Assembly: GCA_025357175.1 (NCBI GenBank)
Contig: JANXPS010000049.1
Coordinates: 1-34,281, forward strand
Length of the DNA: 34,281 bases
Source of the DNA: Deltaproteobacteria bacterium
GTDB lineage: Bacteria; Desulfobacterota; Deferrimicrobia; Deferrimicrobiales; Deferrimicrobiaceae
Direction: 5' to 3'
Shown here: piece by piece, positions 2,820-32,469 of the stretch
How positions within the stretch are numbered: the first letter of the stretch is position 1
Layout: every line of letters begins with the position of its first letter
Translations under genes and position numbers: made by a program
The notes under the pieces: model-generated
Told to the model about the DNA's origin: nothing
Seen by the model: the letters and a program-made list of their open reading frames with translations, nothing else
Databases searched by the model: none

Positions 2820-3637
2820 CCGCCCCCGCGCTGGCGGCGCGCGGCGTCTCGTTCCGGTACGGCGGACGCGCGGTGCTGTCGGATGTTTCGTTCGCGCTGC
2901 AGGCGGGCGAAGTCGCCATCGTGCTGGGCCCCAACGGCGCGGGGAAAAGCACGCTCCTGCGCCTGCTCTCCGGGACGCTTCGCCCGGCGTCCGGCGATGT
3001 CGCCCTGTTCGGGCGTCCGCCGGCCGACTATTCCCGCCGCGAGATGGCCCGCAACCTGTCGGTCGTGGGACAGGACCCGCCTGTCGATTTCCCCATGTCG
3101 GTCGAGGAATACGTGGCCCTCGGGCGTTTTCCGCACCTGGGGCTGTTCGGCGGGGCCTCGCCCGGCGACCGGGAAATGGTGGCGCGGGCGCTGGCGTCGG
3201 CCGGGCTGACCGATCTCGCGGAAAGACCGCTGTCGGCGCTCTCGGCCGGCGAGCGGCAGCGGGCCGCCGTCGCGAGGGCGATCGCCCAGGACGCGCGCGT
3301 GATGCTGTTCGACGAGCCGACCGCCTTTCTCGACATCCGCCACCGGGTGTTGTTCCACGAGATCGTCGAGCGGCTTGCGGAGGAGCAGGGCGTCGGCGCG
3401 CTGGTCGCGTCGCACGACCTGTCGCTTTCCGCCGAGTACGGCGATCGGATCGTGCTGCTTGCCGGCGGCCTGGTGATGGCCGACGGGAAGCCGGAAGAAG
3501 TCCTGACGCCGGAAAACGTGTTCGCGGCGTACGGAGTCGAGGTCGCCTGCGACCGCAACCCGGCGACGGGGGCGGTGCGCATCACCCCGGTCCGGCGAAG
3601 GAGGATCGGACGGGAACCGAACCGGGACCCGAAGTAA
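2816..3637 (+). CDS. btuD: Cobalamin ABC transporter ATP-binding protein
   Basis: GTG start overlapping btuC stop (GTGA); Walker A GPNGAGKST, signature LSAGERQR, Walker B VMLFDEPTAFLD. Confidence 0.94.
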   Translation: MTAPALAARGVSFRYGGRAVLSDVSFALQAGEVAIVLGPNGAGKSTLLRLLSGTLRPASGDVALFGRPPADYSRREMARNLSVVGQDPPVDFPMSVEEYVALGRFPHLGLFGGASPGDREMVARALASAGLTDLAERPLSALSAGERQRAAVARAIAQDARVMLFDEPTAFLDIRHRVLFHEIVERLAEEQGVGALVASHDLSLSAEYGDRIVLLAGGLVMADGKPEEVLTPENVFAAYGVEVACDRNPATGAVRITPVRRRRIGREPNRDPK

Positions 3638-3639
3638 GA

Positions 3640-3812
3640 ACAAGGCAGGTTCCAACGAGGGCGGGAACCGGGGAAGGCCGTGGGATTCGGCCGCTGCCCC
3701 GCAACCGTAAAGGGAACGAAACCCGCAGAAGTGCCACTGGGGAATCTCTCGGGAAGGCGCGGGGAGTAGGCAGTCGTCATGACGCCCGAAGCCGGAAGAT
3801 CCGGACCGCCCC
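3640..3812 (+). promoter_or_regulatory. Cobalamin (B12) riboswitch 2, upstream of btuB
   Basis: GCTGCCCCGCAACCGTAAAGGG...GTGCCACTGGGG...GGGAAGGCG...GAAGCCGGAAGATCC; in btuD-btuB gap. Confidence 0.92.
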
Positions 3813-3819
3813 ATTTCAA

Positions 3820-3842
3820 CCCCCTTTCGAGGGCAAAGGAGG
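3820..3842 (+). promoter_or_regulatory. Putative SD-sequestering hairpin of riboswitch 2
   Basis: CCCCCTTT (3820-3827) can pair with AAAGGAGG (3835-3842), the Shine-Dalgarno of btuB (ATG 3847), with one mismatch. Confidence 0.5.
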
Positions 3843-30117: not shown

Positions 30118-30183
30118 CTTGAAATCTCCTTTCGGTTCTTTACTCAGGGGTTCGAAACAAACTTCATAAAAAAAACGGGAATA

Positions 30184-30275
30184 TGGCGGAGAGGGAGAGA
30201 TTCGAACTCTCGGAACCCTTTTGAGATTCACACGATTTCCAGTCGTGTTCCTTCGGCCAGCTCGGACACCTCTCC
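30184..30275 (-). tRNA. tRNA-Ser(GGA)
   Basis: GGAGAGG/CCTCTCC acceptor, anticodon loop CTGGAAA, long variable arm, GTTCGAATC T-loop, encoded CCA. Confidence 0.95.
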
Positions 30276-30342
30276 GCTTGAAAAACCGTCTGATCAAAGA
30301 TCAAGTCTTGATGAATGCCACCTTCCCCTTGCAGGGAAAAAG

Positions 30343-30436
<94 letters not shown>

Positions 30437-30467
30437 CATTTCGGGGGTCCGTCAGGAAAGACTACCT

Positions 30468-30554
30468 GGCGGAGGGAGCAGGATTTGAACCTGCGGAGCA
30501 TCGCTGCTCAACGGTTTTCAAGACCGCCGCCATCAGCCGCTCGGCCATCCCTCC
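30468..30554 (-). tRNA. tRNA-Ser(TGA)
   Basis: GGAGGGA/TCCCTCC acceptor, anticodon loop CTTGAAA, long variable arm, GTTCAAATC, encoded CCA. Confidence 0.95.
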
Positions 30555-30599
30555 CCGAACCTTCTATTTATACCCGAATTTCCCGCCGATTGGGACAAA

Positions 30600-30840
30600 A
30601 AAATGATAACACCGGGAATCCAATCCGGGGTGCGGCCCATGGCTCCCCTTCGATGCCCATTCCCTGGACGGCCATAAACTCTCCGTCTAGCGCCACGCGG
30701 GGGCCTCTTCCCGGGGGACGTCTTGTTCGGGCATCCCTGCCCTCTCTGCGACTCCATACCCCTCGCGCCGCCAATCCATGGCGGCTACACCCGCTCGGGG
30801 CATAGGCCCCCGTCCAGAGACCCCCGCTTTGGCGTACGCC
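30600..30840 (-). repeat. Structured intergenic repeat, copy L (inverted relative to copy R)
   Basis: Minus-strand blocks GGGGGCCTATGCCCCGAGCGG, GCGAGGGGTATGGAGTCGCAG, CGTCCCCCGG, GCCCCCGCGTGGCGCTAGACGGAGAGT shared in the same order with 30920-31180 plus strand; hairpins at 30797-30810, 30767-30785, 30729-30742. Confidence 0.75.
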
Positions 30841-30919
30841 GGAGAGCGTGAGGCCTCAATATTATTCTCCAAACCGGGTCGTCGCCGATCTTAACTTCGG
30901 GGCTCATCTCGGCGCGTAG

Positions 30920-31180
30920 CGGATTCGGGTGTCTCCTGGAAGGGGGCCTGTGCCCCGAGCGGAATTAAGCGCCAGGGATGGCGCTGCGAGGGGTATGGAG
31001 ACGCAGGCGGCCCATGGAAGGGCCGGCAAGGCGTCCCCCGGAAGGAGATACCCGATCCGCCTGAGCGATGAGCACTTGCCCCGCCCACCTCTCTCGCAAC
31101 CGAAACTTGCGTGTATGGGAAGGGCGCCCCCGCGTGGCGCTCGACGGAGAGTCATGGGCCATACTCTAGAGGGGATGTCC
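30920..31180 (+). repeat. Structured intergenic repeat, copy R (with about 80-nt insertion)
   Basis: GGGGGCCTGTGCCCCGAGCGG, GCGAGGGGTATGGAGACGCAG, CGTCCCCCGG, GCCCCCGCGTGGCGCTCGACGGAGAGT; hairpins at 30943-30956, 30968-30985, 31008-31025. Confidence 0.75.
31063..31160 (+). repeat. Second repeat module, unit 1 (overlaps copy R)
   Basis: GAGCGATGAGCACTTGCCCCGCCCACCTCT...GGGAAGGGCGCC...CGGAGAGTCATGGGCC; matches unit 2 at about 129-bp offset. Confidence 0.6.
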
Positions 31181-31191
31181 GGGCCGCGGCC

Positions 31192-31280
31192 GAGCCGACG
31201 AGTGCTCGCCCCGCCCACCTCTTTAGTAATCCCAACTACCCGCGTACGGTAAGGGTGTCTGGCCGGAGAGCATCGGGCCG
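31192..31280 (+). repeat. Second repeat module, unit 2
   Basis: GAGCCGACGAGTGCTCGCCCCGCCCACCTCT...GGTAAGGGTGTC...CGGAGAGCATCGGGCC. Confidence 0.6.
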
Positions 31281-31305
31281 ACTCAGGTTTTCGGGGCGGG
31301 CTCCG

Positions 31306-31334
31306 TTGCCGCGGGCGTCATCTTCCAATATGAT
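31306..31334 (+). promoter_or_regulatory. Putative promoter of DegT-waaF-waaC operon
   Basis: TTGCCG (31306-31311), 17-bp spacer, TATGAT (31329-31334), 35 bp before ATG 31369. Confidence 0.5.
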
Positions 31335-31368
31335 GGGGGGCTACACCAACTGTCGAAGGGGAATTCCG

Positions 31369-32469
31369 ATGGCGATACCGTTCATGGACCTCAAGGGCCA
31401 GTTCTCGGCGTACGAATCCGACATCCGCGCGCAGGTCGACGACGTGCTGAAAAGCGGCGCGTTCATCATGGGCCCCAAGGGCGCTGCGCTGGAAAAGGCG
31501 CTTGGCGGATTCGTCGGCGCCCGCCACGCGTTCGGATGCTCCTCGGGCACCGATGCGCTGCTGCTCGCGCTCATGGCGTACGGGGTGAAGCCGGGAGACG
31601 AGATCGTCACGACGCCGTTCACCTTCATCGCCACCGCCGAGGTGATCGCGCTGCTCGGCGCCGTTCCCGTATTCGTCGACATAGAACCGGTCCACTACAA
31701 CATCGACCCGTCGAAGATCGATGCGGCGATCACCCCGAAGACGCGCGGCATCATCGCGGTCTCGCTCTACGGGCAGTGCGCCGACATGGAGGCGATCCAG
31801 GCCGTCGCCGAAAAAAGGAACATCTTCCTGATCGAAGACGGATGCCAGTCGTTCGGCGCGGCGCGCAACGGAAAACGGTCGTGCGGATTCGCCCACGTCG
31901 GGACGACCTCGTTCTTCCCGTCCAAGCCGCTCGGCTGCTACGGCGACGGCGGGATGGTGTTCACGTCCGACGACAAGATCGCCGACCTGATCGCCGGGCT
32001 TCGAAACCACGGGCAGTGGGAGCGGTACCGCCACCGGGTGATCGGCATCAACGGCCGGCTCGACGACCTGCAGGCGGCGGTGCTCCTGGCCAAGTTCGCA
32101 CGGTTCGAGGAGGAGCTTGCGGCCCGGGCGCGGATCGGCGCGCGCTATTCCGAAGCGCTGGGCGACGTCGTGACCGTGCCCGCGATCATGCCGGGCAACA
32201 CGCACGTCTTCGCGCAGTACTCGATCCGGACCGCTTCGCGCGACGCGCTGGCGAAGGCGCTGGGCGACAACGGCGTGCCGACGGCGGTCCACTATCCCAT
32301 CCCGCTGCACATGCAGGAAGCGTTCTCGGGGCTGGGACTCGGGGCGGGCGCGTTCCCGGTTTCCGAGTCGGTTTCCACGGAGATTCTCTCGCTTCCGATG
32401 TCCGCGTTCCTGTCGCAGGCGGACCAGGACGAGGTGATCCGCCAGCTCCGTCGATTCTTCGGAAAGTGA
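31369..32469 (+). CDS. DegT/DnrJ/EryC1/StrS family PLP aminotransferase (nucleotide-sugar aminotransferase)
   Basis: MAIPFMDLKGQFSAYESDIRAQVDDVLKSGAFIMGPKGAALE; CSSGTDALLLAL; TSFFPSKPLGCYGDGG. Confidence 0.93.
   Translation: MAIPFMDLKGQFSAYESDIRAQVDDVLKSGAFIMGPKGAALEKALGGFVGARHAFGCSSGTDALLLALMAYGVKPGDEIVTTPFTFIATAEVIALLGAVPVFVDIEPVHYNIDPSKIDAAITPKTRGIIAVSLYGQCADMEAIQAVAEKRNIFLIEDGCQSFGAARNGKRSCGFAHVGTTSFFPSKPLGCYGDGGMVFTSDDKIADLIAGLRNHGQWERYRHRVIGINGRLDDLQAAVLLAKFARFEEELAARARIGARYSEALGDVVTVPAIMPGNTHVFAQYSIRTASRDALAKALGDNGVPTAVHYPIPLHMQEAFSGLGLGAGAFPVSESVSTEILSLPMSAFLSQADQDEVIRQLRRFFGK

Follow-up and report, generated by a model that had tools for sequence, protein, structure and literature searches.

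A dispersed intergenic repeat with two conserved ANGGA hairpin loops and a possible link to CsrA in Deferrimicrobiaceae

The window (the whole stretch of 34,281 nucleotides analysed here) contains two similar sequences, L and R, lying close together in opposite orientations, and the question is what kind of element they form and what it might do. A preliminary description proposed that L and R share ordered blocks in an inverted arrangement, and these blocks can be read directly in the sequence. A repeat search of the window resolved three inverted pairs: 30698-30773/30979-31054 (76 nt, 72%), 30774-30817/30936-30979 (44 nt, 82%) and, outermost, 30678-30704/31126-31152 (27 nt, 96% complementarity), the last giving the locus the terminal inverted repeats that are a trait of MITEs. 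The features are as follows.

30665-31152, no single strand: composite of a minus-strand core (L) and a plus-strand core (R) inside outer inverted ends
30665-30857, minus strand: copy L, a subtype A element, its extent set by similarity to other copies
30701-30815, minus strand: core of L, covariance-model match of 121.7 bits
30767-30785, minus strand: hairpin H2 of L, GCCGCC-ATGGATT-GGCGGC, with a putative CsrA-type loop that has one additional T in L
30729-30742, minus strand: hairpin H3 of L, GGGC-AGGGAT-GCCC, with a putative CsrA-type loop
30938-31051, plus strand: core of R, covariance-model match of 116.8 bits
30968-30985, plus strand: hairpin H2 of R, AGCGCC-AGGGAT-GGCGCT, with a putative CsrA-type loop
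31009-31024, plus strand: hairpin H3 of R, GGCCC-ATGGAA-GGGCC, retaining ATGGA but with A as the last loop letter
30916-31058 (approximate extent), plus strand: portion of R missing at the same locus in congener G001
30678-30704, minus strand: left arm of the outer inverted repeat
31126-31152, plus strand: right arm of the outer inverted repeat

At gathering thresholds, every Rfam match in the window was a tRNA or a cobalamin riboswitch, and none lay on the element. At relaxed thresholds (E <= 10), positions 30150-31400 gave only sub-threshold chance matches, with no match to a CsrB, CsrC, RsmY or RsmZ model. The earlier view that no recognised RNA family accounts for the region therefore stands, as does the view that it is apparently noncoding, no conserved protein having been seen across the element. 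The two cobalamin riboswitches lie on the plus strand at 494-755 and 3630-3823, and three consecutive minus-strand tRNA-Ser genes (GGA, GCT and TGA) occupy 30184-30554, adjoining the element.

L and R belong to a larger family. When 30560-31360 was used as a BLAST query against the same genome (2.52 Mb in 321 contigs), L matched other contigs at 81-92% identity over 170-215 nt, with E values down to 2e-69. The element consists of a core of about 115 nt within an imperfect palindrome of about 150-200 nt, and it occurs as two subtypes: A, which is L-like, and B, which has GCGAGCCTGGGCACCCGAGG after the first hairpin. The head-to-head inverted A/B pair is also present on four other contigs (C293, C177, C79 and C41). 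A covariance model built from 39 copies found at least 24 copies in this genome (G000), at least 16 and at least 22 in its two congeners (G001 and G002, respectively), and at least 18, 28, 11, three and one in members of other genera of the family (G010, G012, G018, G021 and G014, respectively); with 93 candidates scored per genome, these counts may be low. A single marginal match was found in G004, and, at 93 candidates each, no copy was found in the remaining family members or in 16 genomes from outside the family. The suggestion of a dispersed structured repeat is thus borne out by the further copies in the genome itself. No plasmid match to the element was found. An exact-pattern search of the whole collection returned nine matches, seven of them in one 'Deltaproteobacteria' MAG; the other two, in Paenibacillus and an actinomycete MAG, may be chance.

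None of 200 dinucleotide shuffles folded as well as L (z -6.4) or R (z -4.2). The preliminary description had pointed to three hairpins, H1 to H3, kept by paired changes. For H2 and H3 this is confirmed by covariation across the 39 copies: H2 is paired in 97% and H3 in 93% of cells of the alignment, and nine of their 12 pairs change on both sides. The three helices together have both-side changes in nine of 17 pairs and 68 double-change cells, where shuffles give 21.6; none of 500 shuffles reached this total, and the slid controls fell far below it. For covariation, the three-helix structure scores 0.307, compared with 0.097 for shuffles and at most 0.060 for slid controls. H1 did not survive as a hairpin; its letters are conserved, yet none of its five pairs covaries and no double change was seen in the 39 copies. 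In the consensus fold these letters pair elsewhere (columns 13-14 with 68-69 and 19-21 with 61-63), columns 14/68 exchanging CG for GC in 15 copies, and with the 3' half of H1 taking other partners a three-way junction results. The predicted core fold is a long stem with two arms, each ending in an ANGGA hairpin loop, the two loops being about 41 nt apart. Paired changes in the stems argue for selection on a folded strand, in agreement with the earlier suggestion of selection on RNA or DNA structure. The element family is a dispersed intergenic repeat conserved as a folded strand.

A reading of the locus as an ordinary feature, either a short coding sequence or a terminator, is largely contradicted by this combination of covariation and dispersal. 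Short ORFs do run over R on both strands, but the copies are intergenic at unrelated loci, their variation follows base pairs, length changes break frames, and no T-tract follows the hairpins. We regard such an explanation as very improbable.

The preliminary description had noticed neither the ANGGA loops nor a link to CsrA, although the repeat itself and the covariation of H2 and H3, if not H1, were recognised correctly. In both hairpin loops A and GGA are invariant in all 39 copies, whereas other unpaired columns average 80% identity. The N is T, G or A but never C, the loop mostly has the form C[ANGGAU]G, and the closing C-G of H2 is nearly constant. Two covarying ANGGA hairpins thus provide the multiple GGA motifs in hairpin loops that are a trait of CsrB/Rsm-type RNAs. 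The CsrA SELEX consensus is RUACARGGAUGU; its GGA mostly lies in a hairpin loop of six nucleotides, which the flanking AC/GU close (PMC7652899). Judged by its letters, C[ANGGAU]G agrees with the consensus CsrA/RsmA site in its hairpin form if U is permitted at N. Two features count against this match: N is most often U rather than A or G, and the stems of the element (5-7 bp) are more stable than those of most SELEX hairpins, which have four or fewer contiguous pairs (PMC7652899).

CsrA is a global regulator whose known RNA decoys come mainly from Gammaproteobacteria. In this MAG, a Pfam search gave no match to CsrA. In both congeners csrA adjoins fliW after flgL, and the encoded CsrA, inspected by eye, keeps L4, R44 and N55. 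The syntenic contigs in this MAG end inside flgL on one side and, on the other side, about 2.5 kb further, from which we infer that its csrA falls in the unassembled gap. G136, an apparent exception considered below, likewise has a syntenic contig that ends before the expected position of csrA. The apparent absence of CsrA from both genomes is thus explicable as an assembly gap. An initial conclusion that CsrA is absent and the CsrA idea fails was withdrawn, given the positive congeners and the unassembled csrA locus of this MAG.

With this MAG left aside, eight family members have a CsrA match (G001, G002, G009, G010, G012, G014, G018 and G021), while CsrA was not found in ten others tested (G003-G008, G011, G013, G015 and G017). 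Elements or ANGGAU hairpins are present in all eight CsrA-positive genomes, in one of them weakly, and are nil or at background in the ten CsrA-negative genomes, barring one marginal match. Defined as at least three model matches or at least 20 GCCANGGATGGC matches, the trait is present in seven of eight genomes with CsrA and none of ten without (Fisher p 2.5e-4), a threshold set after the data had been seen and with GCCANGGATGGC hairpins counted in only part of the 8 + 10 genomes. Defined as at least one model match, it is present in seven of eight and one of ten, respectively (p 0.002); neither p value takes account of kinship. Three observations indicate that the co-occurrence goes beyond shared ancestry. 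G010 and G015, of one genus, differ in both CsrA and the element; in G018 and G021 the elements were found first, and CsrA was then sought and found to be present; and G009, which lacks any relative of the element, has 34 hairpin matches in an unrelated repeat, some in tandem arrays. These arrays of CATGGATG-loop hairpins have a period of about 25 nt (L149 1300-1589, L150 1450-1750 and L113). Within the family, it is thus the CsrA-encoding genomes that carry either the element or an unrelated repeat bearing these hairpins.

In the phylum outside the family, the mean hairpin count is 5.84 with CsrA and 3.47 without (p 4e-4), whereas a reversed-pattern control that keeps a self-complementary stem showed no difference with CsrA there (p 0.16). 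Three genomes count against the association, having 10-17 hairpin matches and no CsrA match (G156, G167 and G209). In another family, f17, genomes G109 and G136 have 163 and 62 GCCANGGATGGC matches, respectively, in a different dispersed repeat. Many of the f17 hairpins take the form GCAATCAAAGCCATGGATGGCTTTGATTGC (e.g. L117, L135, L138 and L141). Paired or tandem CANGGATG hairpins also occur on IMG/VR contigs (L164, L165, L169, L174, L176 and L177), and the spacers of L165 resemble those of G009; they may be phage-borne CsrA decoys. Several further viral-contig matches look like coding repeats.

The surroundings of 46 copies were inspected; because genes were assigned by a simple GC3 criterion, single context cases may be wrong. 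Nearly all copies are intergenic, in convergent, divergent and codirectional gaps alike, and the 46 favour neither strand with respect to genes, have no preferred position and show no evident functional theme among neighbours. Not all copies are recent, since several keep the same neighbour genes in two or three species. Comparison of R with the same locus in G001 revealed a clean presence/absence difference of about 145 nt, with no clear target-site duplication. In place of copy L, G001 has a different hairpin-rich sequence at this locus (L053, about 1290-1430). A further segment of about 120 nt (window about 31145-31264) is missing in that congener and resembles a tandem duplication with a 42-nt direct repeat (31066-31107/31196-31237). 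Mobility, also suggested in the preliminary description, is compatible with the presence or absence of R between congeners but unproven, given the loci shared by two or three species and the missing RAYT/Y1. A RAYT/REP repeat as such was rejected, the Y1/RAYT transposase (PF01797) having no match in the three genomes of the genus (G000, G001 and G002).

On balance we favour, with a little more confidence than doubt, a dispersed RNA-structured repeat whose transcripts would bind CsrA, acting as distributed decoys or as local landing sites; both transcription and binding are inferred. Transcripts of the GGA strand would bind a CsrA dimer with one hairpin on each RNA-binding face, as the repeated hairpins of CsrB and RsmZ do, and loops 41 nt apart would suit such a dimer. 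With about 16-28 copies in each genome, placed in every gene context and in either orientation, the elements would mainly serve as distributed decoys for CsrA, present as part of read-through transcripts or UTRs; they might also affect their host mRNA locally. The family would have spread by a transposition-like process, as suggested by copy number and the one presence/absence difference. Copies without strand preference, unlike a designed regulator, count against this reading.

The main rival, which we consider unlikely though a serious contender, places the function in DNA: a MITE- or REP-like palindrome in which the ANGGAT loop is a mark read by a transposase or nucleoid protein on single-stranded or cruciform DNA. 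The link to CsrA would then be coincidental or would follow flagellated lineages, and since CsrA tracks such lineages the correlation may indeed be indirect. Dispersal in inverted composites with inverted ends, the variable presence of R, the lack of strand bias relative to genes and the many copies at contig ends all suit such an element. It is less easily reconciled with the failure to find a Y1/RAYT transposase in any of the three genomes of the genus or with the co-occurrence with CsrA, and the same loop on unrelated repeats in G009 and f17 would be hard to explain by a single cognate transposase. Alternatively, each copy may be a cis-acting RNA that recruits CsrA, an RNase or another RNA-binding protein to its own transcript, setting the stability or translation of neighbouring genes with no decoy effect. 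Many copies do lie within a few hundred nucleotides of genes, and several retain their neighbours across species, but the lack of a preferred orientation or position and of an evident neighbour theme makes this improbable in our estimate.

The CsrA-binding repeat that we favour resembles CsrB/CsrC and RsmX/Y/Z in having more than one GGA-loop consensus hairpin per RNA, alongside CsrA. It differs in having two strictly placed loops rather than many, in occurring as dozens of dispersed copies rather than one to few dedicated genes, and in its host lineage, which also has FliW; moreover, it is known here from sequence alone. Working like CsrB is kept apart from membership, as the element matches no CsrB/Rsm family in Rfam. 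REP/BIME and MITE sequences are likewise short, intergenic, palindromic and multicopy, are sometimes inverted pairs and vary in presence between related species. The element departs from them in its covarying internal hairpins and invariant ANGGA loops, in a genus without Y1/RAYT transposase and, in an unsystematic look, with no cognate transposon seen. In the available portions of two papers, Geobacter 'multicopy nucleotide sequences' are dispersed, intergenic and in some cases palindromic, with no assigned function, and are proposed as IHF/HU sites or RNA elements, CsrA not being proposed there (PMC2700814, PMC2996986). Compared by these partial descriptions only, they and the element are both dispersed intergenic sequences of Deltaproteobacteria-type genomes. 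In the literature searched, the Geobacter supplementary alignments aside, no earlier description of dispersed CsrA-binding repeats was found.

The position of csrA beside fliW after flgL in relatives recalls the CsrA-FliW system of Geobacter, Bacillus and Campylobacter, in which CsrA is thought to be controlled by the FliW protein. FliW is taken as the CsrA antagonist in former Deltaproteobacteria such as Geobacter (PMC13407953), where no CsrB-type RNA has been characterised (PMC13407953) and three have been predicted by machine learning (PMC11934962). More tentatively, we suggest a distributed CsrA buffer in this family and in some others of the phylum such as f17, in which tens to more than 100 repeats of independent, unrelated origins would have converged on C[ANGGAU]G and been gained or lost with CsrA. 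If these proposals are correct, a dispersed repeat family presenting CsrA-type hairpins would add RNA-based control of CsrA to such bacteria, and the expansion of a repeat would be tied to post-transcriptional regulation.
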